Positions 5,812 to 60,000 of a stretch of DNA of 60,000 nt are shown piece after piece. The translations under genes were made by a program, and so were the position numbers. Origin of the DNA: a virus; the IMG/VR virus record IMGVR_UViG_3300032246_001735, positions 1 through 60,000 of that record; one strand, 5' to 3'. Below the pieces are notes generated by a model. That model saw only the letters and a program-made list of their open reading frames with translations, was not told the DNA's origin and did no database searches. Every line of letters begins with the position of its first letter. Position 1 is the stretch's first letter.

Positions 5812-6798
5812 CTACCAAGCGGTGGCTATAACTAGGCCATCACCGCCGCGGCCGCCGGGACCACCGCCAGAACCCGAAAATCCAGCTCCACCACCTCCGC
5901 CACCACACCCATAACCTCCAGCACCGCCGCGGCCTCCAGTATTTGCTGTTGCGCCGGCAGCTCCGAGGCCACTTGAACCACCACCAGTTCCGCCATAAAA
6001 ATATTGTAAATTACGTAATACCTGAAATCCGTTTGACCCGGAAAATCCGCCTGTTGTATTGTTTGCCACGCCGCCAGCGCCGCCCGGCTGTGCTGGAAAT
6101 ACACCAGTAACTGTAAATGAACCACCAGCAGTTCCTGCTGTGTTTAATGCGCCAAGGCCCCCTCCGCCAGTGCCGCCAGTTACTACTAGTCCAGTAGTAG
6201 GAATAGTTAACGCACCACTTGCGGCCGCGTTGAACGCACCAATAATTCCGTTTTGTCCTGCAATGTTAATATTACCGGCAGTTGTAGAATAAAATTGACC
6301 TAATGCTGCTAGTGGTGCTGAGGCTATAGTTGATATTGCACCACCGACACCAGCAGGACCACCGACTGCAGCAGTACCTGCACCAGCAACAGTCACTGTG
6401 CCACCGCCTTTACAAATCATTAATAAATTATTTGCTGTTACTGACGGGTCTATAGATATGTAACTATCAACTCCTGCACTGCCAGCACTACCGGTTCCAG
6501 TACCACCTGCACCACCATACCCAACACTGATATACAGTACATCAGGTAATGCCCAAGATGGAAAAATAATTGATGCTTGTGCTCCGGAGCCGCCACCTCC
6601 GCCCCCACCTGCAGCAGTAGCGGCTCCGGCAAATCCGCCACCACCACCACCACCACCGGCCAAACAAAAAAAGTGTACAAAGTTAACACCGCGTGGTTTA
6701 ATCCAAGTTTGCCATCCCACACCAAGAGCGGCCGCGTTAGCATAAAATATCTGTTGAACAGCTTTAGGGTTGGTTGGTAAATGAACAAAATCTAACAT
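5812..6798 (-). CDS. glycine-rich tail/adhesin protein, copy 1
   Basis: A 328-residue protein. The N-terminal 45 residues (MLDFVHLPTNPKAVQQIFYA, then GWQTWIKPRGVNFVHFF) are followed by glycine-rich stretches such as GGGGGGGGF and a C-terminus GGGGAGFSGSGGGPGGRGGDG. This layout resembles phage tail proteins with a conserved attachment domain and polyglycine-rich tips that form polyglycine-II bundles. It is a paralogue of 6877-7872 with the same first 50 residues and similar end. Both lie between small structural genes in the fibre block. Function in host attachment is inferred. Confidence 0.6.
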   Translation of the reverse strand: MLDFVHLPTNPKAVQQIFYANAAALGVGWQTWIKPRGVNFVHFFCLAGGGGGGGGFAGAATAAGGGGGGGSGAQASIIFPSWALPDVLYISVGYGGAGGTGTGSAGSAGVDSYISIDPSVTANNLLMICKGGGTVTVAGAGTAAVGGPAGVGGAISTIASAPLAALGQFYSTTAGNINIAGQNGIIGAFNAAASGALTIPTTGLVVTGGTGGGGLGALNTAGTAGGSFTVTGVFPAQPGGAGGVANNTTGGFSGSNGFQVLRNLQYFYGGTGGGSSGLGAAGATANTGGRGGAGGYGCGGGGGGAGFSGSGGGPGGRGGDGLVIATAW

Positions 6799-6801
6799 AG
6801 A

Positions 6802-6846
6802 TCAATAGGCCTTGGTTATAAAATTTAAATTACTTTGTAAAGACAT
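6802..6846 (-). pseudogene. 14-codon hybrid remnant left by tandem duplication
   Basis: Between the two glycine-rich genes there is a mini-ORF MSLQSNLNFITKAY. Its start and ribosome-binding site match those of the gene at 5275-5781 (MSSASDLSFITS with the same CAGGAACAAGA leader), while its last codons and the bases after its stop match the end of the gene at 7876-8304 (GCC TAT TGA TCT ATG). It is best explained as a junction scar where a block carrying the glycine-rich gene was duplicated. It probably has no function of its own. Confidence 0.6.
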
Positions 6847-6876
6847 TCTTGTTCCTGTTTATTTTAACTACTTATG

Positions 6877-7872
6877 TTACCAGGCAACGGCTATAACTAG
6901 ACCATCACCGCCTCGCCCACCAGCACCACCAGTTGAACCTGTAAATCCGCCGCCGCCGCCGCCGCCGCCGCAGCCATAACCTCCAGCACCGCCGTTCCCG
7001 CCGGTGTTAGATGTGTTTCCAGCTCCATTAAGGCCGGTTCCACCACCTCCAGTTCCACCATAAAAATAGTTTAATCTGCGAAATGCTTGAAATCCATTGC
7101 TGCCATTGCTACCACCAGTGTTGGTACCGCCAACACCTGCTGTACCACCCGGCTGTGCGGGAAATGCTCCAGCAACAGTAAATGAACCGCCGGCAAAACC
7201 TGCCGCATTCGATGCCGCCGCGTTACCGCCGCCGGATGTACCACCAGTTACCACTAGCCCTGTAAGAGGAAGAGTTAATGCAGTACCGGCAACGGAGGCT
7301 CCACCGTTAATAGTTCCGTTTTGTCCTGCAATGTTAATATTACCGGCAGTTGTAGAATAAAATTGACCTAATGCTGCTCTTGGTGCTGCGGTTATAGCGG
7401 ATGCTGCACCTCCAACACCCGCGGCTGCACCGCCAACCGACCCGCCGCCAGCTGGGGTCACTGTGCCACCGCCTTTACAAATCATTAGTAAATTATTTGC
7501 TGTTACTGATGGGTCTATAGATATGTAAGTATCAACTCCTGCACTGCCAGCACTACCGGTGGCATTGGCACTTGCTCCCCCAGCACCGCCGTACCCAACA
7601 CTGATGTATAGTACATCGGGTATTGCCCACACTGGAAAAATAATTGACGCTTGTGCTCCAGAACCACCACCACCACCGCCAGATGCGTTAGTGACGCCGT
7701 TATTGCTACCACCGCCACCACCACCACCACCGGCCAAACAAAAAAAGTGTACAAAGTTAACACCGCGTGGTTTAATCCAAGTTTGCCATCCCACACCAAG
7801 AGCGGCCGCGTTAGCATAAAATATCTGTTGATCAACTTTGGGATTGGTTGGTAAATGAACAAAATCTAACAT
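6877..7872 (-). CDS. glycine-rich tail/adhesin protein, copy 2
   Basis: A 331-residue paralogue of 5812-6798. The first 50 residues differ at few positions (NPKVDQQIF instead of NPKAVQQIF). The middle and the polyglycine segments have diverged more, as expected if the tips are under diversifying selection. The C-terminus is again a GRGGDGLVIAVAW type ending. The start is 3 bases after the stop of the gene at 7876-8304. A role as virion attachment protein is inferred from composition and neighbours. Confidence 0.6.
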   Translation of the reverse strand: MLDFVHLPTNPKVDQQIFYANAAALGVGWQTWIKPRGVNFVHFFCLAGGGGGGGGSNNGVTNASGGGGGGSGAQASIIFPVWAIPDVLYISVGYGGAGGASANATGSAGSAGVDTYISIDPSVTANNLLMICKGGGTVTPAGGGSVGGAAAGVGGAASAITAAPRAALGQFYSTTAGNINIAGQNGTINGGASVAGTALTLPLTGLVVTGGTSGGGNAAASNAAGFAGGSFTVAGAFPAQPGGTAGVGGTNTGGSNGSNGFQAFRRLNYFYGGTGGGGTGLNGAGNTSNTGGNGGAGGYGCGGGGGGGGFTGSTGGAGGRGGDGLVIAVAW

Positions 7873-48719: not shown

Positions 48720-49000
48720 TTTAGACCATTAGGACCCCATATATAAATAGAATTCTAAACCGAGCGCTAGTGGGAATCTAGGATCTAATCTACCGGGCAC
48801 TCTAGGGCCGACGGGTTGATTCATTCTAGAGGTCATGAGGACATGGTCCCTTGAATCTGCGGCTAGTCTGCGACCAACTTAGAGAGGTAAGACCGCCCCT
48901 GTAGGGGTTAACAGCAGAACGGGACTGCTTAGAACTGGTCAGCTAGAGCAGTACTACTAGGGGCACACTGTATACACGTATACTCTGTGCCCTTTAGTTT
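48720..49000. ncRNA. candidate structured RNA in the gene-free region
   Basis: This stretch is richer in G and C than its surroundings and has nested complementary segments. GATTCA and TGAATC enclose CATG, AGGA, CATG. CCCC, TGTA, GGGG forms a short hairpin. ACTGC pairs with GCAGT. At the right end GGGGCACA pairs with TGTGCCCT around GTATA, CACG, TATAC. I do not recognise an RNA family. Boundaries and strand are not determined; the plus strand is suggested by the CCTTTAGTTT after the last hairpin. Confidence 0.35.
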
Positions 49001-49137
49001 CTATCACAGAGCACTGTATACTCATATACAACACTATATGTATAGTATAAACAGTCGAGGATCTCAAGGCCCGTAATCCCACTGTATATACTCACTATAC
49101 TATTATCTCAGTATAGTGTGTATTATAGCCGTATACT

Positions 49138-49356
49138 CCCGGGTTATAGTGGTATAATATTATCTGATTATACGGGTTTTTAGTCTTATACTCCCGGGTT
49201 ATAGTGGTATAATATTATCTGATTATACGGGGAGTATACGGCTATAATCCCGGGTTTTAAAATTATAATATTATCTGATTATACGGGAGTTTATCGGAAT
49301 AATATTATGTCAGTATACGGGATTATATCAGAATAATGTTATTGGATTATAAGTGG
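49138..49356. repeat. iteron-like array, possible origin
   Basis: Three 39-bp copies (49138-49176, 49193-49231, 49249-49287) start CCCGGGTT and end with ATAATATTATCTGATTATAC followed by GGG. Two degenerate copies follow (49299-49321 and 49333-49356). The period is 55-56 bp, then 34 bp. Each copy has an AT-rich palindrome ATAATATTAT. The first two have TGGTATAAT, which looks like an extended -10. Such arrays bind replication initiators or regulators. Confidence 0.65.
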
Positions 49357-49415: not shown

Positions 49416-49443
49416 TTGACACAGTGTGCAGAGACTGTATAAT
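49416..49443 (+). promoter_or_regulatory. early promoter P0 (leaderless gene)
   Basis: TTGACA, 16 bp, TATAAT. The ATG of the GIY-YIG gene begins 7 bases after the -10, where transcription should start. It lacks the AACACTAA leader of the other promoters. Confidence 0.8.
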
Positions 49444-49449
49444 ACGAGA

Positions 49450-49794
49450 ATGGACACACAAACACAGCCCCGCAAAAAACGCAGCGACCGCAATCACATT
49501 GTGTACGAGCTGGTCATCGGCTCAGAAAACTATGTGGGAGTCACTGCTAAGACTGAGAGCACTGTGGTCAAGAGTGTGCAGAGCAGGCTCGCCAAGCACT
49601 GGTATCGTGCACAGAAGGAAGGCAAGGACTGGGCCTTGTGCCGTGCACTGCGTCAGTTGACCAATCGTGCAGAAGTTGAGATCCGCATACACGAGATCGT
49701 GCGGGGCAAGAGTGCCGCGCACAAGAGGGAAGTTGAGATCCGTCGTGGCGTTAAGCCCACACTGAACACAGATGTTAGGGGAGATAGTGCTTGA
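49450..49794 (+). CDS. GIY-YIG-type nuclease-like protein
   Basis: A 114-residue protein. The start at MDTQTQPRKKRSDRNH (ATG 49450) is chosen because the promoter -10 ends 6 bases before it; the longer frame would start before the transcript. IVYELVIGSENYVGVT matches the Y-x-I and YVG halves of a GIY-YIG domain, SRLAKHWYRA holds the Arg, and HKREVEIRRGVKPTLN gives the Glu and the PxLN end. It may cut host or competing DNA early in infection. Its TGA is inside the -35 of the next promoter. Confidence 0.65.
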   Translation: MDTQTQPRKKRSDRNHIVYELVIGSENYVGVTAKTESTVVKSVQSRLAKHWYRAQKEGKDWALCRALRQLTNRAEVEIRIHEIVRGKSAAHKREVEIRRGVKPTLNTDVRGDSA

Positions 49795-49819
49795 CAGGGC
49801 ACTAAGACTTCGCTATAAT
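49791..49819 (+). promoter_or_regulatory. early promoter P1
   Basis: TTGACA, 17 bp, TATAAT, then ACTTGAACACTAACG leader. The TGA stop of the previous gene (49792-49794) is within the -35. Confidence 0.9.
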
Positions 49820-49854
49820 ACTTGAACACTAACGCAACAGAGAGAGCACACACT

Positions 49855-50043
49855 ATGCTATACGACCTCGACACCTTCGTTAACACTAACGCTAGCACCT
49901 TTGAGGGCTCGCTTGAGGAGTTCACCAGCACGTTCCCTGCAGCAGACTGCGACGAAACAGCAGACCCAGTGCTGGTGTACCTGCGAGCGGGAGAGCCTGT
50001 TGCTTGGTACGACCTCGAACTTGAGTGCGGGTTTGTGGCTTAA
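49855..50043 (+). CDS. small acidic early protein
   Basis: A 62-residue protein (MLYDLDTFVNTNASTFEGSL). ATG 49855 is preceded by GAGAGAG; the longer frame starts with a TTG inside the promoter leader and is not used. It is highly acidic (Asp and Glu) with three Cys or Trp-rich segments (PVAWYDLELECGF). No family. Such small acidic early proteins often inhibit host enzymes (general inference). The end TGTGGCTTAAATGCCACA forms a short hairpin over the stop codon. Confidence 0.6.
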   Translation: MLYDLDTFVNTNASTFEGSLEEFTSTFPAADCDETADPVLVYLRAGEPVAWYDLELECGFVA

Positions 50044-50061
50044 ATGCCACAATCTGCGGGG

Positions 50062-50090
50062 TTGACAACAGCCCCGCAGTTCGCTATAAT
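50062..50090 (+). promoter_or_regulatory. early promoter P2
   Basis: TTGACA, 17 bp, TATAAT, then the leader ACTTGAACACTAACAGCA and GGAGCAGCAAAG before the ATG of the ATPase gene. Confidence 0.9.
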
Positions 50091-50121
50091 ACTTGAACAC
50101 TAACAGCACGGAGCAGCAAAG

Positions 50122-51012
50122 ATGAAAGCAGAAATTATTTTCCAAGACGGCAATTGGATCGGTATGGCAGCAGGCAAGAAAGTGGTCAAGAGCTACGATC
50201 AAACCCGTGTGGTCAAGATGATGGCCAAAGCAGGCTACAAGAACGTGCCCATCCGGGGTGAGGATGTTACCACTGCAGTGGAAGATGCAGAGTGCCAGTG
50301 GGACATCAATCAGCGATTCAGTTTCCTCACTGACCTCGTTACCATGGTAGCCAAACGGCAGGCTGTGAGTGTGGTTGTCACAGGTCCTGGAGGCCTAGGC
50401 AAGACGCACACTGTACAGGCTGCGCTCCAGTCAGCAGGTCTCAAAGATGCCAGCGACATGAACAATTATGGCAAAGACGGCCTGTATCGCGTGATCAAAG
50501 GCTATAGCACTGCTAAAGGCCTGTTCCGTGAACTCTACGAGAACCGTGACAGTGTGATCGTGTTTGACGACTGCGATGCTGTGCTCAAGGATCCCGTGGC
50601 CTTGAACCTGCTCAAAGGTGCTCTTGACAGTTACGACAAACGAGTGATTTCTTGGAATGCAGACTTCCGTGACGAAGATCTCGAGCGCAGTTTCCAGTTC
50701 ACGGGGCGTGTGATCTTTATCAGCAACATCAAGCGTGAGAATCTTGATGCTGCCTTGCTGACTCGTGCCTACTGTGTGGACCTGCGTATGACTGATGCAC
50801 AGAAACTGGAGCGTATGAGTGTGCTCACTGAAAGTGCTGACTTCCTGCCGCAGTTTGACATCAAGCACAAGCGGGAAGCACTGGCCCTGATTGGGGAGGT
50901 AGGCGATCGTGCTCGTGAGATCAGTCTGCGTACCCTGCAGGCTGTGACTCGGATCCGTGCTGCTAACACCAAGAACTGGCGTGCACTGGCAGAGTACACT
51001 TTGACCAACTAA
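50122..51012 (+). CDS. AAA+ ATPase
   Basis: A 296-residue protein. GPGGLGKT (residues 88-95) is the Walker A loop, SVIVFDDCDAVL (about 145-156) Walker B, GRVIFISNI the sensor 1 Asn, and DAALLTRAY carries the likely arginine finger. The N-terminal 80 residues are a separate small domain. It resembles short AAA+ proteins of phages of unknown role (possibly clamp loading, replication or host protein remodelling). It is the largest early gene and has its own promoter P2 and a strong terminator after it. Confidence 0.8.
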   Translation: MKAEIIFQDGNWIGMAAGKKVVKSYDQTRVVKMMAKAGYKNVPIRGEDVTTAVEDAECQWDINQRFSFLTDLVTMVAKRQAVSVVVTGPGGLGKTHTVQAALQSAGLKDASDMNNYGKDGLYRVIKGYSTAKGLFRELYENRDSVIVFDDCDAVLKDPVALNLLKGALDSYDKRVISWNADFRDEDLERSFQFTGRVIFISNIKRENLDAALLTRAYCVDLRMTDAQKLERMSVLTESADFLPQFDIKHKREALALIGEVGDRAREISLRTLQAVTRIRAANTKNWRALAEYTLTN

Positions 51013-51026
51013 GGCGGCAGTGCCGG

Positions 51027-51054
51027 GGTGTTGTAGAAATGCAACACCTTTTTT
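51027..51054 (+). terminator. intrinsic terminator after the AAA+ gene
   Basis: GGTGTTG, TAGAAATG, CAACACC, then six T. The 7-bp stem with T-run is a good Rho-independent terminator. The AGTGCCGGG motif precedes it, and promoter P3 follows directly. Confidence 0.85.
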
Positions 51055-51056
51055 GG

Positions 51057-51085
51057 TTGACGGGCGGGCTCTAGTTCGCTATAAT
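51057..51085 (+). promoter_or_regulatory. early promoter P3 (CATTGAAC subclass)
   Basis: TTGACG, 17 bp, TATAAT, then CATTGAACACTAACAGCAC. The -35 starts two bases after the terminator T-run. Confidence 0.85.
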
Positions 51086-51120
51086 CATTGAACACTAACA
51101 GCACACACGGAGCAGTAGAG

Positions 51121-51525
51121 ATGGGCAAGATCTTACACTTTAGACCTACTTGTATCAATCTAGGCTGTAAGAGCCCGTGTACCCCCATGCGAGGCCGGAT
51201 TGGGGACAGTGACGTGCGCTACAGAGTTTTCTGTGACCTTTGCCACAGAAACAGTTATATGGACAAGCCCTTGGCCCCAGGTGTCACTCGCTTCAAGAAG
51301 AACCGTTGCTCCAATACCAATAGCCGACTGGGTTTCCCTTGCGTAGTGGATTGGGCCTTGGTAGAGAGCACAGGCTTCAAGCTGAGCACCGAAGTGGATC
51401 ACAAGAACGGTGACAATACAGACAATCGGTTGCGTAATCTGCAAGAGCTGTGCAGCCTGTGCCACAAGGAAAAAGGCAAGCGCAGTGGGGATCACGACAG
51501 CTGGAAACACTACAGATCGGCTTGA
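51121..51525 (+). CDS. HNH endonuclease, cysteine-rich
   Basis: A 134-residue protein. FCDLCHRNS and LCSLCHKEKG give two zinc knuckles, and STEVDHKNGDNTDNRLRNLQ is the D-H-x-x-G-x-x-x-(N)-x-x-x-N-L core of HNH nucleases, matching the phage type. The start ATG 51121 follows GGAGCAGTAGAG. An additional N-terminal Cys cluster (CINLGCKSPC) may bind a second zinc. The TGA stop is inside the next -35. It may cut host DNA. Confidence 0.8.
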   Translation: MGKILHFRPTCINLGCKSPCTPMRGRIGDSDVRYRVFCDLCHRNSYMDKPLAPGVTRFKKNRCSNTNSRLGFPCVVDWALVESTGFKLSTEVDHKNGDNTDNRLRNLQELCSLCHKEKGKRSGDHDSWKHYRSA

Positions 51526-51550
51526 CAAGTAGAGTTTGCGGCTATATAAT
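51522..51550 (+). promoter_or_regulatory. early promoter P4 (CATTGAAC subclass)
   Basis: TTGACA, 17 bp, TATAAT, then CATTGAACACTAAGCAAATG. The HNH stop TGA (51523-51525) is inside the -35. Confidence 0.85.
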
Positions 51551-51579
51551 CATTGAACACTAAGCAAATGGGGCACGAG

Positions 51580-51864
51580 ATGTTGCAAGACTACACCATG
51601 TACATTTGGAAACTGGATCGTCGACTCAAGACCGGGCGGCGTGCCGTTCAAACCTATGTTTATCGTGCCAAGCATGATCAGTGGATGCAGGAGGAGGTGC
51701 GTGATCTGCAGGCAGGCTTGTACCCTAAGAGCAAGGGGTTTGTGCTAGAGTTCGTGCCCACCATGAAGACGGTGCGGAACCTGATGACTGGGGAGGAAGT
51801 GCAGATCCCCCATGATACTCCTCGCTCTTGCGACCCTAGTACTGAACTTTATTGGAGCATGTGA
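51580..51864 (+). CDS. hypothetical early protein
   Basis: A 94-residue protein (MLQDYTMYIWKLDRRLKTGR). ATG 51580 follows GGGGCACGAG; an in-frame ATG nine bases upstream overlaps this ribosome-binding site, so the later start is favoured. Charged and rich in Arg and Lys in the first half (RRAVQTYVYRAKHDQW). No family is recognised. Confidence 0.6.
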   Translation: MLQDYTMYIWKLDRRLKTGRRAVQTYVYRAKHDQWMQEEVRDLQAGLYPKSKGFVLEFVPTMKTVRNLMTGEEVQIPHDTPRSCDPSTELYWSM

Positions 51865-51865
51865 T

Positions 51866-52105
51866 ATGAATTGGATTCTACTAGCAGTGGCCACTCTGCA
51901 GCCCATTTCCGCTCACACCACGCGAGTGGGCTGTGAGTTGGAGATCAGACAGATGATCCGGCAGGAGAACCCCATGCCCCACCACTTGACATTTGAGCAA
52001 GAAGAAGCATACAAGGCCCGGATTGATGCACTGTACAATGGTCAAAAATCCTACCTCTGTGTGCGAAATAAGCCACAATCTTCGGTTGACAAGCCAGTTC
52101 AATGA
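51866..52105 (+). CDS. hypothetical small early protein, possibly exported
   Basis: A 79-residue protein. ATG 51866 lies one base after the stop of the previous gene. The start MNWILLAVATLQPISA looks like a short signal peptide or membrane anchor, then a charged helical part (EQEEAYKARIDALYNGQ). Two Cys are present. The end reads through the next -35 and stops in the promoter spacer, so the coding end overlaps promoter P5. Confidence 0.5.
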   Translation: MNWILLAVATLQPISAHTTRVGCELEIRQMIRQENPMPHHLTFEQEEAYKARIDALYNGQKSYLCVRNKPQSSVDKPVQ

Positions 52106-52114
52106 AGGTATAAT
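52086..52114 (+). promoter_or_regulatory. early promoter P5
   Basis: TTGACA, 17 bp, TATAAT, then ACTTGAACACTGGGAAACA and AGGAGTAGCAG. The whole -35 is inside the previous coding frame. Confidence 0.85.
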
Positions 52115-52144
52115 ACTTGAACACTGGGAAACAAGGAGTAGCAG

Positions 52145-52234
52145 ATGTTAACAGTTCTTGCAGTTTGGTTTGCGGTCAGTGTGCCTGTAGCACTGCTGGT
52201 AGGCGCTGTAATCCGATTTGGCTCAGGAGAGTAA
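52145..52234 (+). CDS. 29-residue membrane peptide
   Basis: ATG 52145 follows AAGGAGTAGCAG and promoter P5. The peptide MLTVLAVWFAVSVPVALLVG plus AVIRFGSGE is a single membrane segment with a basic end. The next gene starts 4 bases after its stop. A small early membrane peptide could act on host envelope or proteases (inference). It is real by position, not by homology. Confidence 0.55.
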   Translation: MLTVLAVWFAVSVPVALLVGAVIRFGSGE

Positions 52235-52238
52235 CAGC

Positions 52239-52415
52239 ATGAAAATTGATACCATGATGGAGATTGGTGAAATTCAAGGTCTGCTAGAAGATCTTGCTGA
52301 GCGTATAGGCTACCTGCCCATTGCTACCGTGAAGCGGCGGCAGATGGAAAGCAAACTCCTGGAGATCGAAGAGTTCCTGGATGAGGAACTGCAGTTGGCC
52401 AGCACTGATTGGTAG
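52239..52415 (+). CDS. hypothetical helical early protein
   Basis: A 58-residue protein (MKIDTMMEIGEIQGLLEDLA). ATG 52239 with GGAG nine bases upstream at the end of the membrane peptide gene. The whole protein is predicted as a helical hairpin (RRQMESKLLEIEEFLDEELQ). Same operon as the membrane peptide. No family. Confidence 0.55.
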   Translation: MKIDTMMEIGEIQGLLEDLAERIGYLPIATVKRRQMESKLLEIEEFLDEELQLASTDW

Positions 52416-52416
52416 G

Positions 52417-52445
52417 TTGACACAAGGCTCAAAAGGCCTTATAAT
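52417..52445 (+). promoter_or_regulatory. early promoter P6
   Basis: TTGACA, 17 bp, TATAAT, then ACTTGAACACTAGCAAACA and AGGAGCAGCAA. Here the previous stop (TAG) is just upstream of the -35. Confidence 0.9.
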
Positions 52446-52475
52446 ACTTGAACACTAGCAAACAAGGAGCAGCAA

Positions 52476-52808
52476 ATGAACTACACTCAAGAGCAGATTA
52501 ACGCAATCGTAGCAGAAGCCCAAGTTGAAGCCCGCCGGGCAGCAGAAGCATTCCACGCCCAGTATGGCGATCGTGATTGCTGTGGCTTTGCGTGGACCAA
52601 CATATACGGCATCAAAGGCAACACCAAGGTGGGCAAGATGCTCAAGGCTGCTGGTGTGCGGCAGGATTACACCAAGGCCTTCCAGATCTGGAACCCCTCA
52701 AAGTTCCCCACGCAGAGCATGAACATTCTGGAAGCGGGTGCACAGGCCGCAGCGGAGGTGTTCCGCAAGTACGGCTTCGACAGCCTTGCTGGCAGCAGGA
52801 TGGACTGA
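52476..52808 (+). CDS. conserved-looking early protein of unknown function
   Basis: A 110-residue protein. After a helical N-terminus (QINAIVAEAQVEARRAAEAF) comes CCGFAWTNIYGIKGNTKVGK and AFQIWNPSKFPTQSMNILEA, a pattern that reads like a compact enzyme or binding fold, but I cannot name it. ATG 52476 follows AAGGAGCAGCAA. A hairpin with GGGGTGTGG and CCACACCCC lies right after the gene. Confidence 0.55.
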   Translation: MNYTQEQINAIVAEAQVEARRAAEAFHAQYGDRDCCGFAWTNIYGIKGNTKVGKMLKAAGVRQDYTKAFQIWNPSKFPTQSMNILEAGAQAAAEVFRKYGFDSLAGSRMD

Positions 52809-52815
52809 GCCCTAA

Positions 52816-52841
52816 GGGGTGTGGTGTATGTGCCACACCCC
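52816..52841. terminator. bidirectional hairpin terminator
   Basis: GGGGTGTGG, TGTATGTG, CCACACCCC is a 9-bp perfect stem after the gene at 52476. No T-run follows on the plus strand. Its right part (GCCACACCCCGGCACTCC, 52832-52849) is the reverse complement of the element at 49355-49372. Confidence 0.55.
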
Positions 52842-52859
52842 GGCACTCCAATCTAGTGG

Positions 52860-52888
52860 TTGACAGGCGCCCAAGAGTTCGCTATAAT
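52860..52888 (+). promoter_or_regulatory. early promoter P7
   Basis: TTGACA, 17 bp, TATAAT, then ACTTGAACACTAACAGCA and AGGAGCAGCAAG. Confidence 0.9.
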
Positions 52889-52918
52889 ACTTGAACACTA
52901 ACAGCAAGGAGCAGCAAG

Positions 52919-53137
52919 ATGCAGTGGAACTTGGAAGGTATGCGAGTTTGGGGACACTACCTGGACATGTTCCCGGTCAGCGGAGAGGTTGTCTTGAGCC
53001 GCGTGTGCTATGGTGGCAGTGTACAGCATACCGTGGTCCTGGAGCAGCCCTTGACGGTGTTTGGTCGAGTGCGGGCAGCAGGCGAGCGGGTCTTGCTGGA
53101 TCACAAGGATGTGGTTCGTGTAAAGGATGCGGTATGA
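52919..53137 (+). CDS. hypothetical early protein
   Basis: A 72-residue beta-rich protein (WGHYLDMFPVSGEVVLSRVC, then GERVLLDHKDVVRV). ATG 52919 follows AAGGAGCAGCAAG. It reads like a small barrel or OB-type domain. The stop overlaps the next ATG (ATGA), so the two are coupled. No family is recognised. Confidence 0.6.
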   Translation: MQWNLEGMRVWGHYLDMFPVSGEVVLSRVCYGGSVQHTVVLEQPLTVFGRVRAAGERVLLDHKDVVRVKDAV

Positions 53138-53322
53138 CCAATGAGTATATCCCCGTAGTCGCTGTTCGTTGGTGGTTTCGCAATGACCACGAATGGATCC
53201 AGCATTTTGATAATGCCCCCGAGCGGGACTATTGGATCAACCGTGTGGGCTTGGTCACGCATCCTGACATTGTGCGAGTCACTATCTATGAAGGTGACTG
53301 GGAAATGAACCTTAAAGGATAG
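53134..53322 (+). CDS. hypothetical early protein
   Basis: A 62-residue protein (MTNEYIPVVAVRWWFRNDHE). The ATG overlaps the previous TGA. Rich in aromatic residues (WIQHFDNAPERDYWINRVGL). It ends three bases before the next TTGACA. Unknown function; probably co-translated with the previous gene. Confidence 0.6.
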   Translation: MTNEYIPVVAVRWWFRNDHEWIQHFDNAPERDYWINRVGLVTHPDIVRVTIYEGDWEMNLKG

Positions 53323-53323
53323 G

Positions 53324-53352
53324 TTGACAAGTCAGAGACTTGACAGTATAAT
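53324..53352 (+). promoter_or_regulatory. early promoter P8
   Basis: TTGACA, 17 bp, TATAAT, then ACTTGAACACTAGCA and AGGAGCACACG. The spacer ends in another TTGACA directly before the -10, as in P12 and P14. Confidence 0.9.
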
Positions 53353-53378
53353 ACTTGAACACTAGCAAGGAGCACACG

Positions 53379-53570
53379 ATGTTGAACACTTGGGAAATGG
53401 ATACGATCCGCGAGATCAAGGCCCGTGTTGTGCGTAAACAACCCGTGGCAGATTGGGAGAAGCAGCTGGTCCTAGATCTGCTCCGCCGCGAAGGCGAGGT
53501 AGTGCGGCAGGATGTGATCGATCGTGCTCGCAATAGCGGCTTCAATGTGCAGGGCATCAAGACTCGATGA
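53379..53570 (+). CDS. hypothetical early protein, helical
   Basis: A 63-residue protein (MLNTWEMDTIREIKARVVRK). ATG 53379 follows AGGAGCACACG. Two helices and a basic C-terminus (RARNSGFNVQGIKTR) suggest a small nucleic-acid or protein binder. It is the first gene of a four-gene run (to 54206) with TTGAC but no -10 at the joints. Confidence 0.6.
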   Translation: MLNTWEMDTIREIKARVVRKQPVADWEKQLVLDLLRREGEVVRQDVIDRARNSGFNVQGIKTR

Positions 53571-53592
53571 GGTTGACAAAATGGAGCAAACT

Positions 53593-53763
53593 GTGAGCAA
53601 AGACACTTACCTGTTCTATACATACGATTCTAGGGGCAATGACAGGATCATCCCGGTCAAGGCCCATACCAGAGACCAAGCGTTCGAACTGTTCGATCGT
53701 GTGTACGGAGAGGACACACCGGTTGACTTCGTGGTACGCCGGGAAGAGCAGTATCTCGGTTGA
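53593..53763 (+). CDS. hypothetical early protein
   Basis: A 56-residue protein, starting at GTG 53593 (MSKDTYLFYTYDSRGNDRII) because GGAG lies six bases upstream, as in other leaders. An ATG at 53581 in the same frame overlaps that GGAG. It ends EEQYLG with GGT TGA. The mixed beta and helix pattern does not match a family I know. Confidence 0.55.
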   Translation: MSKDTYLFYTYDSRGNDRIIPVKAHTRDQAFELFDRVYGEDTPVDFVVRREEQYLG

Positions 53764-53785
53764 CAAATAGGAACAGGAGATGAAT

Positions 53786-54010
53786 ATGAGCAGACGTATT
53801 GAGTACCGTGTGGATTTGGATGAGCGTGGTGAATTCCGTGCCACAGTCTACGATGGCGACACTGTATTGGCCGAAGTTGACACCGAGGATATGATGTTTA
53901 TGATAGAGAACATGGGGGTCCGTGATCCTCGTGATCACCATGGGTTGAGGGATTATTTCCGCCTTGCTGGAGTGTTGGATTCTAGCGACACCTTTGAAGT
54001 CTGCGGTTGA
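53786..54010 (+). CDS. hypothetical early protein, acidic
   Basis: A 74-residue acidic protein (MSRRIEYRVDLDERGEFRAT). ATG 53786 is chosen because AGGAG lies six bases upstream; ATG 53780 is too close to it. DTEDMMFMIENMGVRDPRD forms the second half. It ends FEVCG with GGT TGA. No family. Confidence 0.55.
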   Translation: MSRRIEYRVDLDERGEFRATVYDGDTVLAEVDTEDMMFMIENMGVRDPRDHHGLRDYFRLAGVLDSSDTFEVCG

Positions 54011-54026
54011 CCGGGAGGATTAAACA

Positions 54027-54206
54027 ATGGAATACCTCAAAAGAGCAGAACTCTACTGTGCGGCCAGAGGTGATGAACTTTGGTTCAAGAACCTGTACAC
54101 AGGATTCCGGCAATACAATACTGTGTCTGACAGTGTATGGAAGACCTTGAGTTACCTGTACAGCAACGAAACCGCTGATCTGCTGGAGAGCCAACAAACC
54201 GGTTGA
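54027..54206 (+). CDS. hypothetical early protein
   Basis: A 59-residue protein (MEYLKRAELYCAARGDELWF). ATG 54027 follows GGGAGG. Aromatic-rich and helical (SDSVWKTLSYLYSNETADLL). It ends QQTG with GGT TGA, and this stop is inside the -35 of the next promoter. Last gene of the four-gene run. Confidence 0.6.
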   Translation: MEYLKRAELYCAARGDELWFKNLYTGFRQYNTVSDSVWKTLSYLYSNETADLLESQQTG

Positions 54207-54231
54207 CAAGCCCTAGACCCGGTGCTATAAT
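54203..54231 (+). promoter_or_regulatory. early promoter P9 (variant leader)
   Basis: TTGACA, 17 bp, TATAAT, then ACACTTACACTGAAACACA and AGGAGCAGCAA. The leader differs from the others. The stop TGA (54204-54206) is inside the -35. Confidence 0.85.
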
Positions 54232-54261
54232 ACACTTACACTGAAACACAAGGAGCAGCAA

Positions 54262-54405
54262 ATGGAAACTTTTGATGATATCCAGTGCGAAGAGTACTAC
54301 GAGGCATTTGGCACCGAGCAGGAGCAGTTTGAGCAGTGGCAGCAGTCCTTGGAAGCAGCAGAGATTGACCTTGTTAACGCTGAACTCAGGTGCATTACTG
54401 GTTGA
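54262..54405 (+). CDS. 47-residue acidic early protein
   Basis: ATG 54262 follows AAGGAGCAGCAA. The protein starts METFDDIQCEEYYEAFG and has EQEQFEQWQQSLEAAEIDLV, a very acidic helix with many Gln. It could mimic DNA or bind a host protein (inference). The stop is GGT TGA inside the next -35. Confidence 0.6.
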   Translation: METFDDIQCEEYYEAFGTEQEQFEQWQQSLEAAEIDLVNAELRCITG

Positions 54406-54430
54406 CAACGCCCGAAAGGGCTGCTATAAT
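54402..54430 (+). promoter_or_regulatory. early promoter P10
   Basis: TTGACA, 17 bp, TATAAT, then ACTTGAACACTAACACAAC and GGAGCACGGAA. The stop TGA (54403-54405) is inside the -35. Confidence 0.9.
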
Positions 54431-54460
54431 ACTTGAACACTAACACAACGGAGCACGGAA

Positions 54461-54766
54461 ATGAGCTACCCCAATATGAGTTACTGCATGTGCGAAAACA
54501 CCCTGCTGGCTCTGCAGCAGATTATCACGGCCATGAACATGGAAGGCACGGACTTTATCCGTGACCTGAGCCGTAGTGAGCGGCGTGCGTTCGGCGAACT
54601 GCTCAACGCCTGCGAGGACTTTAGGGCGGTTGCAGAGGAACTGCAGGACGAAGCGGATCGTGAAGAAGAGTACGAGGACGATATGGACGGCGATCATGCC
54701 AGTGCTTTGGCTTCGGCAGGCTTGGGCACAGACGAGGATTATGGTGCCTGCGACGAGCGGTTCTAA
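54461..54766 (+). CDS. acidic early protein, unknown
   Basis: A 101-residue protein (MSYPNMSYCMCENTLLALQQ). ATG 54461 follows GGAGCACGGAA. The second half is strongly acidic (EADREEEYEDDMDGDH) and the end is CDERF. Two Cys lie in the first 12 residues. The pattern of a helical domain plus acidic tail suits a protein inhibitor or DNA mimic (inference). Confidence 0.6.
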   Translation: MSYPNMSYCMCENTLLALQQIITAMNMEGTDFIRDLSRSERRAFGELLNACEDFRAVAEELQDEADREEEYEDDMDGDHASALASAGLGTDEDYGACDERF

Positions 54767-54802
54767 CCTGGATAATTGCGTCTGTTATTTTAAAGGAAAA
54801 TA

Positions 54803-55750
54803 ATGTATAAAACTACTAAGAAATTAGTTCTCACCTGTCTTGTTGGACTTATTCCCACGCTCTCGTTAGCATGGGAACCTACCAAACCAGTTAATGTGGT
54901 TATCGCGTATGGTCCTGGATCGGGAAACGAAATTCTCTTTAGAAAAATTGACAGTATCATCAAAAAAACAAATAAGAATGTAACATTTGTTCTTGAGTTT
55001 AAACCAGGTGCAAACGAATTAGTGGGTATGAACCATTTCGCACAAGCGGCGAATGATGGTTATACAATTTATGCTCCCGCAGTCGGTGTGTGGATTGGTA
55101 CACCTGTTTGGTACAAAAAATCAATGATTCAAGATCCCATCGAATGGTCACCGATTGTCAGTCTAGGCGAAGCGCCACTGGCTCTATATGCTTCTAATGA
55201 AAGTAAAGTGAATAACCCTAGAGAATTTTCACAGGCATTAACAGCAGGTGCTAAAATTAATGTGGGAGTTGGTGCTGCTGTTCATGTTCTATCGTATGAA
55301 TATATGGCTAAACAGACCAATGCGACTAACGCTCAACGTATTCAATTTAATAGCCCTGCCGCGGTGGCACAAGCAGTTTCCGGTAACCAAATTGAATTTG
55401 GTATTAGTCCATTGCCTATCGCTCTAGAACTTGCAAAAGCCGGTAAACTTAAAATTATTGGTATCACAGGAAATATAAAGGGGGGCCCCTATCCAAATAT
55501 AGCAGACACATTTAAAGGTCTTGACTTAGTTGGGCAGATCGGAATCGTACTTCCTAAAAATACTTCGAAAGAAATTTTAGATTTTTATATCGGACTATTT
55601 ACAGAAGCAGTTAATAGCCCAGAATATCTAGAGTTTTTAAAAGAAACTAATTGGTTTGATACTATGTATAATCACAATAATTTCAAAGCATTTATTTTTT
55701 CACAACGCAAGAAGTGGATCCCTGTAGCAGAAACAATACAGTTTAACTAA
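54803..55750 (+). CDS. TctC/Bug-family periplasmic binding protein, second copy
   Basis: A 315-residue protein with signal peptide (MYKTTKKLVLTCLVGLIPTL, cleavage after LSLA). KPVNVVIAYGPGSGNEILFR and FVLEFKPGANELVGMNHFAQ, then AANDGYTIYAPAVGVW, correspond to the Bug family. It differs clearly from the copy at 16320-17255. It has AAAGGA before the ATG but no early promoter of its own, is much richer in A and T than the flanking early genes, and is followed by a terminator. It looks like a recent insertion (inference). It may bind carboxylates in the host periplasm. Confidence 0.8.
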   Translation: MYKTTKKLVLTCLVGLIPTLSLAWEPTKPVNVVIAYGPGSGNEILFRKIDSIIKKTNKNVTFVLEFKPGANELVGMNHFAQAANDGYTIYAPAVGVWIGTPVWYKKSMIQDPIEWSPIVSLGEAPLALYASNESKVNNPREFSQALTAGAKINVGVGAAVHVLSYEYMAKQTNATNAQRIQFNSPAAVAQAVSGNQIEFGISPLPIALELAKAGKLKIIGITGNIKGGPYPNIADTFKGLDLVGQIGIVLPKNTSKEILDFYIGLFTEAVNSPEYLEFLKETNWFDTMYNHNNFKAFIFSQRKKWIPVAETIQFN

Positions 55751-55813
55751 TTGTGAAATTACCAAATCGAGTGTTTTTTACAGAGGTCACTGGGCTATTT
55801 GCGGCAGTGCCGG

Positions 55814-55841
55814 GGTGTTGTAGAAATACAACACCTTTTTT
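55814..55841 (+). terminator. intrinsic terminator with GAAA tetraloop
   Basis: GGTGTTGTA, GAAA, TACAACACC then six T. The 9-bp stem, GNRA loop and T-run make it a very strong terminator. AGTGCCGGGG precedes it, as at 51027, and promoter P11 follows. Confidence 0.9.
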
Positions 55842-55843
55842 GG

Positions 55844-55872
55844 TTGACAGGCAGTCCAAACTCCGCTATAAT
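55844..55872 (+). promoter_or_regulatory. early promoter P11 (CATTGAAC subclass)
   Basis: TTGACA, 17 bp, TATAAT, then CATTGAACACTAACGCAATG and GGAGCAGCAA. Directly after the terminator T-run. Confidence 0.9.
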
Positions 55873-55901
55873 CATTGAACACTAACGCAATGGAGCAGCA
55901 A

Positions 55902-56159
55902 ATGATTTCAGCAAAACAGCAGGCACGTTTCGATCGCGAAGCACAGCAGCGCGAGGTCTTTGTTCAGGCACTGAATCAAATGATGGAGGCACAGCGTGAA
56001 AACTACGGCGGTTACGCTTATAGTGCCGGTTGGCTGCAGAGTATGTTGACTCAGGCTTGGATGCAAATGCCCAAGGCAAAGCGCGAGCGGGTGCTGGAAG
56101 ATGTGCAGGCTCAGACCATCAAGCAGTTGAAAGAAGTGGTTGACCGGGCTCGAGTTTGA
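55902..56159 (+). CDS. hypothetical early protein, helical
   Basis: An 85-residue protein (MISAKQQARFDREAQQREVF). ATG 55902 is favoured over an in-frame ATG at the ribosome-binding site. Helical with Gln and Arg. The promoter P12 -35 (TTGACC) is inside its last codons and its TGA stop precedes the -10. Confidence 0.6.
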   Translation: MISAKQQARFDREAQQREVFVQALNQMMEAQRENYGGYAYSAGWLQSMLTQAWMQMPKAKRERVLEDVQAQTIKQLKEVVDRARV

Positions 56160-56168
56160 CACTATAAT
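56140..56168 (+). promoter_or_regulatory. early promoter P12
   Basis: TTGACC, 17 bp, TATAAT, then ACTTGAACACTAACAGCA and AGGAGCACTAG. The -35 is fully inside the previous gene; the spacer ends with TTTGACAC and the stop. Confidence 0.85.
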
Positions 56169-56197
56169 ACTTGAACACTAACAGCAAGGAGCACTAG

Positions 56198-56398
56198 ATG
56201 ACTAACATTGAACTGGCAAAAGGCATCAAGCACGGTATGTTCGCTAGCCGCCCTACCGTTGAGGAGGCTTGGGACTATGTGGATCACATTGCCCGCTCCT
56301 GCGGCAAGGACAACCGTGCGGCAGTGATCACTGCGGTGCAGGTCATGCTTAACACCGTGGCAGAGCAGATGTTGCGTAACGAACACACTGAAGTCTAA
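56198..56398 (+). CDS. hypothetical early protein
   Basis: A 66-residue protein (MTNIELAKGIKHGMFASRPT). ATG 56198 follows AAGGAGCACTAG. Helical, with a conserved-looking EEAWDYVDHIARSCGKDNRA. No family is recognised. Confidence 0.6.
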   Translation: MTNIELAKGIKHGMFASRPTVEEAWDYVDHIARSCGKDNRAAVITAVQVMLNTVAEQMLRNEHTEV

Positions 56399-56402
56399 GT
56401 GG

Positions 56403-56431
56403 TTGACGCAGCCCTTCGGGGCTGCTATAAT
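56403..56431 (+). promoter_or_regulatory. early promoter P13
   Basis: TTGACG, 17 bp, TATAAT, then ACTTGAACACTAGAGCAATG and GGAGCACACA. The spacer holds GCAGCCCTTCGGGGCTGC, a 7-bp hairpin (GCAGCCC, TTCG, GGGCTGC less one mismatch) of possible regulatory use. Confidence 0.85.
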
Positions 56432-56460
56432 ACTTGAACACTAGAGCAATGGAGCACACA

Positions 56461-56697
56461 ATGGCTATCACAGAAGATCAAATTGCCGATATGGCTTTGA
56501 AGGCCTGTTTCTATGTTACGCCCGAGGATCAGTGGCTGAGAATCGATTACTGCGATATGTCAGAGGGATACTTTCAGTGCCACGACGAAGAGTCCTTTGA
56601 AGAGTACCGTGTGGATTTTGCAGAGGTCACCCTGCAAGGTAACGAATGCTTCTATCAACTGACCAAGATGGAAGTAGTTGACACAGAGTCAGTTTGA
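56461..56697 (+). CDS. hypothetical early protein, acidic
   Basis: A 78-residue protein (MAITEDQIADMALKACFYVT). ATG 56461; an in-frame ATG overlaps the GGAG upstream. Acidic, with FQCHDEESFEEYRVDFAEVT. The -35 of P14 is inside its last codons. Confidence 0.6.
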   Translation: MAITEDQIADMALKACFYVTPEDQWLRIDYCDMSEGYFQCHDEESFEEYRVDFAEVTLQGNECFYQLTKMEVVDTESV

Positions 56698-56706
56698 CAG
56701 TATAAT
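56678..56706 (+). promoter_or_regulatory. early promoter P14
   Basis: TTGACA, 17 bp, TATAAT, then ACTTGAACACTAGAGCAATG and GGAGCAAGTG. The spacer ends GTTTGACAG, with the stop TGA of the previous gene (56695-56697). Confidence 0.9.
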
Positions 56707-56735
56707 ACTTGAACACTAGAGCAATGGAGCAAGTG

Positions 56736-57011
56736 ATGCGAGTAAAAACGATCGACCCATACGATACCCGTGCGTACACCTGCGCGGTGCTGGAACTTGT
56801 CGACGAAGGTATGCTGGACAAGGACACACTGATCGCAGACTTGCTCAGTTGGATGAGCGAGTTCGAAGTTGAGCAGTTTTGCCGCAAGAACTTGCGGGAC
56901 GATGACACCAACGAGTGCCTGATTGGTCCCGATGTGGACGATGAGGAAGAGGACAGTGACGAAGCACTACTGAACAACTTTAACTATGTGGGTTCACGTC
57001 ATCACTATTGA
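56736..57011 (+). CDS. hypothetical early protein, acidic
   Basis: A 91-residue protein (MRVKTIDPYDTRAYTCAVLE). ATG 56736 is favoured by GGAG spacing. The second half is very acidic (GPDVDDEEEDSDEALLNNF). The end overlaps the next reading frame region, with TGA 57009-57011. Confidence 0.6.
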   Translation: MRVKTIDPYDTRAYTCAVLELVDEGMLDKDTLIADLLSWMSEFEVEQFCRKNLRDDDTNECLIGPDVDDEEEDSDEALLNNFNYVGSRHHY

Positions 57012-57022
57012 TCGGAGAGCAT

Positions 57023-57211
57023 ATGATCCCGGAATTTATTCATAAGATTGACTGGGCTCTGTTACGCAAACAGAAACGTTGGCTGCGGCGGCAATTGCAG
57101 CGCCATCTTGACTGTGCCGAAGCAGAGGGGCTACTGGCCCTAGTGGTTGCGATACAGGACTACGCAGTTGATGAGATGTTTATTGATGAAGCAGAAGTTT
57201 TTGGAGAATGA
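57023..57211 (+). CDS. hypothetical early protein, basic
   Basis: A 62-residue protein (MIPEFIHKIDWALLRKQKRW). ATG 57023 with GGAG five bases upstream. Basic N-terminal helix (LRRQLQRHLDCAEAEG) and acidic C-terminus. Same operon as the previous gene. No family. Confidence 0.55.
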   Translation: MIPEFIHKIDWALLRKQKRWLRRQLQRHLDCAEAEGLLALVVAIQDYAVDEMFIDEAEVFGE

Positions 57212-57212
57212 T

Positions 57213-57377
57213 ATGAAAGATTGGTTCAATACTCGCTACAGTGTACAAGAGCTGCGTACTATGATCGCAGACCATCCACAGTGGATCTATCGTGAAGTGC
57301 CTGAGAATATGGGCCGCTGTCGGTTGGCCGCAGAGTTGGAGCGGTTGGATCAAGAACTAGAGGAGCAGGCCCTGTGA
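57213..57377 (+). CDS. hypothetical early protein
   Basis: A 54-residue protein (MKDWFNTRYSVQELRTMIAD). ATG 57213, one base after the previous stop, with GGAG six bases upstream. Ends in an acidic helix (RLDQELEEQAL). The stop overlaps the next GTG. Confidence 0.6.
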   Translation: MKDWFNTRYSVQELRTMIADHPQWIYREVPENMGRCRLAAELERLDQELEEQAL

Positions 57378-57613
57378 GGATTCCGTCGGGTCCTGTAGAC
57401 AAGGCTCTTAAATGGACCGCCACTGCGATCTTGATTGTAGGATCGCTGATCAACGGTTTGGGCTATTATCCTTGGGGTCCATTAATCCTCACAGCAGGCG
57501 GAGCCGTTTGGCTCATAGTGGCCTGTCGGTGGCGTGAACCCAGTATGATCGTGACCAATGCTGTTATGTTTGTGGCGGGCGCTGGCGGTTTGCTGTTTAA
57601 TCTCATTAAGTGA
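57374..57613 (+). CDS. small membrane protein, early
   Basis: A 79-residue protein with GTG start at 57374 (GTGA overlap). It has two to three membrane segments (ATAILIVGSLINGLGYY, PLILTAGGAVWLIVAC and IVTNAVMFVAGAGGLLFNLI). The segment WREPSMIVTNAVM is charged between them. It could be a transporter-like or holin-like small protein; no family is clear. Confidence 0.55.
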   Translation: MRIPSGPVDKALKWTATAILIVGSLINGLGYYPWGPLILTAGGAVWLIVACRWREPSMIVTNAVMFVAGAGGLLFNLIK

Positions 57614-57623
57614 AGTGCCGGGG

Positions 57624-57647
57624 TGTTGTAGAAATACAACAGAGATT
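57624..57647 (+). terminator. degenerate copy of the terminator element
   Basis: TGTTGTA, GAAA, TACAACA follows AGTGCCGGGG as in the two strong terminators, but the rest is GAGATTTT, so the T-run is short. It may be a weaker terminator. Confidence 0.55.
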
Positions 57648-57651
57648 TTGG

Positions 57652-57680
57652 TTGACAAGACAGAACAGATCCGCTATAAT
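57652..57680 (+). promoter_or_regulatory. early promoter P15 (CATTGAAC subclass)
   Basis: TTGACA, 17 bp, TATAAT, then CATTGAACACTAACAGCAC and GGAGCACAAG. It follows the terminator-like element. Confidence 0.9.
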
Positions 57681-57709
57681 CATTGAACACTAACAGCACG
57701 GAGCACAAG

Positions 57710-57931: not shown

Positions 57932-57958
57932 TTCACACTAACAGCCTGGAGCAACTAA

Positions 57959-58387
57959 ATGGGAACTCGTAGCGCAATCGGTATGCAGTTTGGCAACATC
58001 GTCAAAGCAGTCTACTGCCACTGGGATGGTTATCCAGAGTATGTGGGTGCAATACTGCACAAGTATTACAACAGAACCAAGACTGCACACCTGCTCAGTC
58101 TGGGCAATCTCAGTTCGCTGGGTGAACTTATTGAACCCGATCCGGAATTTCCGCACTCATTCGAGCACAGGCAGAAAGATGTGTGCGTGTTCTACGGTCG
58201 AGACCGAGATGAATCAGGTAATGAGTATCAGGTGTTTGACACAGTGGATCTATTCAAGCAAGACTTTGGTTCAGGTGTAGAATACTTGTACCTACTGACC
58301 ACTGATGGCAACTGGGTGGTTGCTACAGATGACAGTTACTCTAATTGGCAACTGTTGGCTGATGTGCTAGAACAAGAAGAGGCCTGA
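57959..58387 (+). CDS. phage protein of the MGTRSAIG type
   Basis: A 142-residue protein. It begins MGTRSAIGMQFGNIVKAVYC, then HWDGYPEYVGAILHKYYN, a start I recall from many phage and bacterial hypothetical proteins. The C-terminal GVEYLYLLTTDGNWVVAT is beta-rich. Function is unknown. The leader ACACTAACAGCCTGGAGCA before the ATG is a relic of the early leader; its -35 and -10 are missing, so it is transcribed from P15. Confidence 0.65.
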   Translation: MGTRSAIGMQFGNIVKAVYCHWDGYPEYVGAILHKYYNRTKTAHLLSLGNLSSLGELIEPDPEFPHSFEHRQKDVCVFYGRDRDESGNEYQVFDTVDLFKQDFGSGVEYLYLLTTDGNWVVATDDSYSNWQLLADVLEQEEA

Positions 58388-59898: not shown

Positions 59899-60000
59899 CT
59901 TCTTCTGGTGTTGTGCCTCTACGACACCCCTTCTTCTGGTGTTGTGCCTCTACGACACCCCTTCTTCTGGTGTTGTGCCTCTACGACACCCCTTCTTCTG
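59899..60000 (+). repeat. 31-bp tandem hairpin repeat, runs off the window
   Basis: Three complete copies begin at 59899, 59930 and 59961 and a fourth at 59992 is cut by the window edge. Each has GGTGTTGT, GCCTCT, ACGACACC, an 8-bp stem with one G-T pair and a 6-base loop, joined by a CCCTTCTTCT linker. The copies are identical. The stem arm GGTGTTGT is also that of the early terminators. Confidence 0.85.

Follow-up and report, generated by a model that had tools for sequence, protein, structure and literature searches.

A repeated promoter and leader cassette at the gene junctions of a hypervariable block in an uncultured, probably T4-related phage

The promoter array

We analysed a 60-kb record of an uncultured bacterial virus (IMG/VR record IMGVR_UViG_3300032246_001735, positions 1 to 60,000; hereafter "the window"), which carries an array of near-identical promoters, each joined to the same leader and ribosome site. 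We use "cassette" for one such promoter with its leader. Genes at 134-45633 mostly use the minus strand, and among their products are proteins that read as a DNA ligase, as tail-fibre-like and as sugar-modifying; small genes form a plus-strand block that starts at 49416. A search of the window with the pattern TTGACNN{15,18}TATAAT returned 18 sites, compared to 0.17 expected from dinucleotide shuffles. Fifteen of these lie at 49791-57680, all on the plus strand and all with a spacing of exactly 17 bp, so that they read TTGAC(A/C/G), N17, TATAAT. No further copies of the cassette motif were found elsewhere in the window.

The similarity extends well past the -10 hexamer. Fourteen of the 15 array promoters continue with TTGAACACT(A/G), and TTGAACACTA is exact at 13 of them; the copy at 52117 reads TTGAACACTG and the promoter at 54203 has the variant ACACTTACACTG. 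When up to two mismatches were allowed, TATAATNNTTGAACACTA matched the window 14 times on the forward strand and never on the reverse strand, and a reversed-pattern control gave no matches. Column statistics showed that the TTGAC core, the -10 and the predicted +1 to +5 (ACACT) are invariant in all 15 cassettes, in keeping with a sequence-only reading of this locus in which the transcripts were predicted to begin near AACACTA. By the same statistics the GG directly 5' of the -35 is conserved, the spacer is mostly near background and the leader is rich in A and C; the TGn element is rare. The ribosome site is exactly GGAGCA in 12 of the 15, mostly 6 nt 5' of the ATG, and the others read AGAGAG, GGGGCA or GGAGTA. 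Late genes in the window have no uniform Shine-Dalgarno (SD) sequence, and early genes therefore differ in their translation signal too. The pattern search and the column statistics confirm the array of near-identical promoters with a common leader that the sequence-only reading had proposed. Its count of fourteen promoters with leader and GGAGCA holds for the leader but was slightly generous for GGAGCA.

In 45 of about 217 promoters, among them those at 51522, 54203 and 54402 and others in relatives, the gene upstream ends with the TGA that lies within the TTGAC -35. This is the commonest stop position, with a second peak at +17, in the spacer, which places the cassettes exactly at gene junctions.

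No conserved RNA fold of the leader was evident, and the notion that it is specially unstructured was weakened by folding values of -2.8 for early starts and -3.9 for late-gene starts, which fold only slightly more. The 45 nt upstream of the cassettes fold about 2.5 kcal/mol more than random window sites, and intrinsic terminators with a clear U-run abut two of the 15 cassettes. We rejected an upstream hairpin as a universal part because the effect is modest and clear terminators are so few. A spacer hairpin was rejected likewise: perfect inverted repeats do occur in some spacers (CAGCCCTTCGGGGCTGC), though in no more than modest excess.

Conservation of the leader

The leader is also present in three related contigs: G001 (14 copies), G002 (8 copies) and the more distant G007, which has up to 18 copies within three mismatches on the array strand. 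Twelve orthologous cassettes were compared between the window and its sister contig G001. No changes were observed at +1 to +6 (0/72) or in the -10 (0/72), two in the -35 (2/72) and six in the discriminator (6/72), while the spacer (34/204), the upstream region (40/216) and coding sequence (90/1792) had all diverged. The leader is more conserved than the spacer (p = 3e-5, Fisher), contrary to the outcome in related phages that would have refuted the sequence-only reading, and more conserved than coding sequence (p = 0.047). The six discriminator differences amount to three complete AC-to-CA or CA-to-AC dinucleotide swaps in three orthologous cassettes, and look like exchange between cassette copies.

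Gene exchange at the cassettes

The window and G001 differ by several gene replacements whose edges (51104, 51539, 53381, 56456 and 56671) all fall in cassettes or within 7 bp of one. The HNH gene at 51121-51525 is replaced by another gene in G001, the gap in homology running from the leader of cassette 3 to the spacer of cassette 4. At cassette 13 the spacer is identical in both contigs and the downstream gene is different. G001 lacks about 400 bp of genes from the ATG of cassette 8 onward. A TctC-like gene (tripartite tricarboxylate transporter receptor; 54803-55750), flanked in the window by an upstream stop codon (54766) and the terminator that abuts cassette 11, is absent from this place in G001.

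For a wider test we collected 186 breakpoints from 25 locus pairs among 15 loci, taking positions -10 to +68 as the cassette zone. Breakpoints fell in cassettes in 35.5% of cases, compared to 10.4% with a random-position null (maximum 19.4% of 2000) and 10.2% with a rotation null (maximum 19.4% of 1000), an enrichment of 3.5-fold. The 15 loci share a pool of 31 gene families, whose neighbours mostly differ and whose order is scrambled. This shuffled pool of unrelated genes, the breakpoint enrichment and the conservation of leaders over spacers support the sequence-only reading's proposal of a cassette that can be transplanted to express small early proteins.

Distribution and phage identity

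A looser pattern retrieved 70 stretches. Many belong to arrays in uncultured phages, the largest with some two dozen promoters; many of the single matches are probably due to chance. The leader occurs in dialects that differ from genome to genome: acttgaACACTAACA in the window, gcacttACACTAACAA in a 259-kb phage (G008) and acatacATACACACAA in others. The nearest neighbour of a leader lies in the same genome in 42.5% of cases, compared to 8.6% with shuffled labels and 11% in a coding control, and the spacer shows a like effect (44.3%). Most of the array forms a single block in the larger contigs, as at about 221-234 kb of G008.

The phage is probably T4-related. A gene for the T4-type capsid protein gp23 was found in five of the six large array-bearing contigs examined (151-383 kb). 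We found no cultured phage with the same array: there was no nucleotide match, and protein matches were below 60% identity. Phages G003-G006, whose AAA proteins are about 55% identical, have few or ordinary consensus promoters and do not have this leader. A 257-Gb set of bacterial and archaeal genomes contained the 16-base motif only as scattered matches, 106 stretches with one copy and one with two, which is about the chance level (we estimate about 120 from the motif length). Copies of the array in hosts or prophages were rejected as a candidate, since almost all genome matches are single and at that level.

Feature table and remnants

Coordinates of the block are collected in Table 1. Downstream of the last cassette lies a leader-like copy that is probably a decayed cassette, judging from its bases. 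Neither this copy nor the N16 promoter at 49416 figured in the sequence-only reading. Several GGTTGAC motifs at 53564-54020 lack a -10 and stand just 5' of an SD and a start codon; they may be what is left of deleted cassettes.

Table 1. Promoters, cassettes, terminators and related features of the plus-strand block
Feature	Position	Strand	Description	Basis
Promoter, N16	49416..49449	+	sigma70-type, TTGACA-N16-TATAAT-ACGAGA-ATG; ATG at predicted +1	
Leaderless gene	49450..49794	+	predicted leaderless early gene, 114 amino acids, GIY-YIG-like (family F3), first of block	
Cassette 1	49791..49854	+	promoter and leader, SD AGAGAG	promoter and leader search
Cassette 2	50062..50121	+	drives AAA ATPase gene 50122-51012 (AAA PF00004)	
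Terminator	51025..51056	+	intrinsic, GTGTTG..CAACACC-T6; abuts -35 of cassette 3	
Cassette 3	51057..51120	+	homology to G001 ends at 51104 in leader (HNH gene swapped)	
Cassette 4	51522..51579	+	TGA in -35 is HNH gene stop; homology back at 51539 (spacer)	
Cassette 5	52086..52144	+	leader ACACTGGG	
Cassette 6	52417..52475	+		
Cassette 7	52860..52918	+		
Cassette 8	53324..53378	+	homology to G001 breaks at 53381 (ATG)	
Cassette 9	54203..54261	+	variant discriminator and leader ACACTTACACTG	
Cassette 10	54402..54460	+	inverted repeat GCCCGAAAGGGC in spacer	
Terminator	55812..55843	+	intrinsic, abuts cassette 11	
Cassette 11	55844..55901	+		
Cassette 12	56140..56197	+	TTGACC	
Cassette 13	56403..56460	+	TTGACG; junction with G001 at 56456 in leader	
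Cassette 14	56678..56735	+	homology back at 56671, 7 bp 5' of -35	
Cassette 15	57652..57709	+		
Leader-like copy	57934..57958	+	CACACTAACAGCCTGGAGCAACTAA, 5' of gene at 57959; promoter hexamers not intact	direct reading

A predicted leaderless GIY-YIG-like gene

The first gene of the block, of family F3, differs from those behind the cassettes in that it is predicted to be leaderless, a conclusion drawn from the spacing between promoter and ATG. Promoter-to-ATG distances for 289 promoters form two peaks, one at 17-35 nt and one, of 20 cases, at exactly 6 nt. In several of the latter a further in-frame ATG follows an SD, so that there may be two starts; detection favours such cases because an open frame was required. 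In the leaders of G007 (L218) and of L205, L208 and L177 the +1 A opens an ATG in frame with an SD-preceded ATG (e.g. ATGATGAACGCAACGGAGCAGACGATG), giving possible double starts there.

Within F3 the arrangement is consistent. The ATG lies 5-6 nt past the -10 in all eight phages of one comparison, and a script recovered the same arrangement in 47 of 50 non-redundant homologues. Of the other three, two can be read with an in-frame ATG 6 nt past TATACT, bringing the count to about 49 of 50. Motifs of the family matched 599 IMG/VR stretches, at least 576 of which encode a relative. The predicted structure (mean predicted local distance difference test, pLDDT, 82.6) has as its best PDB match the GIY-YIG domain of I-TevI (probability 0.96, template modelling scores 0.53/0.62, but an E value of 0.12), which would fit a GIY-YIG-like fold. 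Residues Y19, Y28, R46, H50, E94 and N106 are invariant in six sequences and may correspond to the catalytic set of GIY-YIG. The family has no Pfam GIY-YIG match. Within the terms searched, we found no paper linking leaderless mRNA to T4-like phages or to early promoters.

Comparison with known systems

Promoter-early stem-loops (PeSLs) of T4-like phages have reportedly been described in 2010 (Arbiol) and 2014 (Comeau). PeSLs resemble the present array in combining a strong promoter, early or here presumably so, with many copies among small variable genes (here 15-16 consensus promoters), in having exchange junctions at the motif (here the breakpoint enrichment), to some extent in the intrinsic terminator that some copies directly follow, and probably in their phages, the relatives of the window array being gp23-bearing. 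The array differs in that a clear U-run terminator adjoins just two of its 15 cassettes, and in that the unit extends downstream through the initial transcribed sequence and the ribosome site to the start codon, a part that is not conserved in the T4 early promoters sampled. The array is best described as a variant of the T4-like mobile regulatory cassettes, extended through the leader. PeSLs are cited as "mobile regulatory cassettes" in PMC4503421.

The Start-Associated Sequences (SAS) of cluster K mycobacteriophages, with their ESAS counterparts, are SD-holding repeats, the SAS being 13 bp long and lying 3-7 bp before the start (PMC3203893). Like the cassettes, they are short repeats that precede numerous unrelated non-structural genes; the consensus of ESAS varies by subcluster, and previous stop codons can fall within the motif. 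SAS stands at the start codon and has no promoter as a defining part, whereas the cassettes unite promoter, +1 region and SD; ESAS adds inverted repeats, and the leader here is not an inverted repeat. A 13-bp repeat of the SAS type (GGGATAGGAGCCC) is absent, the cassettes having instead ACACTA, a variable A/C-rich stretch and GGAGCA. The "uber" early promoters of T4, built from UP, -35, TGn and -10 elements (PMC2988021), are likewise near the sigma70 consensus and expected to compete at once for host polymerase, but the promoters here mostly combine TTGACA with a constant N17, seldom have TGn and are followed by a fixed downstream region. T5 N25-type promoters share an escape-tuning initial transcribed sequence (PMC12464699), though this concerns one promoter rather than an array with a common initial sequence.

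Interpretation

The reading we favour, with a probability of about 70%, is that the block is a hypervariable early region in which recombination spreads, and keeps uniform, a strong host-sigma70 promoter, an escape-friendly A/C-rich start and a ribosome site. A start cassette would stand before every small gene or pair of genes. In it GGTTGACA-N17-TATAAT is followed by a fixed discriminator and initial transcribed sequence (ACTTGA/ACACTA) and then by an A/C-rich leader, with GGAG about 6 nt 5' of the ATG. At DNA entry all cassettes would be read by host RNA polymerase, and the products would be short mRNAs with a common 5' end and a common ribosome site. Since the copies are short, almost the same and located at gene junctions, often overlapping the previous stop, recombination between them could swap, insert or delete genes with correct expression retained. 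The same exchange would keep the copies alike within a genome.

Several facts weigh against this reading. Under a strict definition, 14 of the 22 breakpoints between the window and G001 lie outside cassettes, and the run-on of alignments into merely similar cassettes can inflate the cassette breakpoint counts in general; the identical spacer of cassette 13 above different genes argues against run-on, at least at that junction. Purifying selection alone could keep +1 to +6 fixed. No gp23 was found in the window's nearest sister records, which are fragments, and the probable kinship of the window to T4 is one by association with the gp23-bearing array contigs. What the data show directly is the motif with its conservation, the shuffled pool of genes, the dialects and the enrichment of breakpoints. 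Early timing we infer from the host-type promoters, and the use of host sigma70 and the start site are likewise predicted. We also infer homologous recombination, rather than selection on the junctions, as the cause of the pattern.

A rather unlikely alternative is convergence, in which every early promoter has reached the best sequence for polymerase escape and ribosome loading and no special recombination is involved. The joint conservation of -35, -10 and initial transcribed sequence fits this explanation, as do the A/C-rich, weakly folded leaders and the finding that the initial transcribed sequence of T5 N25 alters productive yield up to 25-fold (PMC12464699). However, T4 initial sequences are not conserved (identity 0.29, compared to 0.69 here, for a small T4 sample of 11 sites from a simple pattern, some probably within genes), relatives use different leader dialects, and early starts fold only slightly less than late ones. 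Breakpoint enrichment and gene shuffling are not predicted by convergence. If a single gene had recently been duplicated in tandem together with its promoter, near-identical upstream sequences would result, but this idea is refuted by the genes behind the cassettes, which are almost all unrelated, and by spacers and coding starts at background identity; we give it almost no weight.

The sequence-only reading had suggested control by one factor that sees the leader, and this was not supported. Such a phage or host factor, recognising the leader as RNA or DNA, would control the genes together, for example through a RegB-like shut-off of early mRNA at GGAG from which leaderless genes are exempt. 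The invariant ACACT and near-uniform GGAGCA speak for it, the abundant F3 family consistently avoids the leader, and T4 has annotated regulators of this kind (RegA, RegB). Yet the leader differs between related arrays while its function is presumably kept, it has no conserved structure, and profiles for RegA (PF01818) and RegB (PF10715) matched no array-bearing record searched, including those of 259-383 kb, though many records are fragments. As a control, the RegB profile matches T4; the RegA profile matches only G004, which is without the leader array. We regard such a factor, which could belong to an unrelated family, as very improbable; none is needed, since the conservation is explained by strong promoters, early escape, translation and spread through recombination. 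Also improbable is a two-class scheme of early translation across this large, probably T4-related group, in which dozens of exchangeable genes with an identical 5' leader and GGAG site are opposed to a ubiquitous leaderless GIY-YIG-like gene that evades or outlasts a switch directed at leadered mRNAs, and whose nuclease may promote cassette exchange.

The recombinational reading would extend the idea of a mobile regulatory cassette to a large uncultured phage group. The exchangeable unit could include the transcript start and ribosome site, and a newly gained gene would therefore be expressed at once, a concrete route by which phages may take up new small host-takeover genes. The near-universal F3 gene beside the arrays would give bacterial viruses one of their few leaderless mRNAs with wide conservation, in which the reasons for keeping leaderless translation could be tested.

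Other observations in the window

Dense repeats around "CCCGGGTTATAGTGGTATAATATTATCTGATTATACGGG" occupy 49000-49340, between both gene blocks. At 59905-60000, CTTCTTCTGGTGTTGTGCCTCTACGACACCC is tandemly repeated and is cut by the end of the record. An adjacent pair of highly similar glycine-rich proteins (328 and 331 amino acids), probably tail-fibre related, is encoded at 5812-7872.

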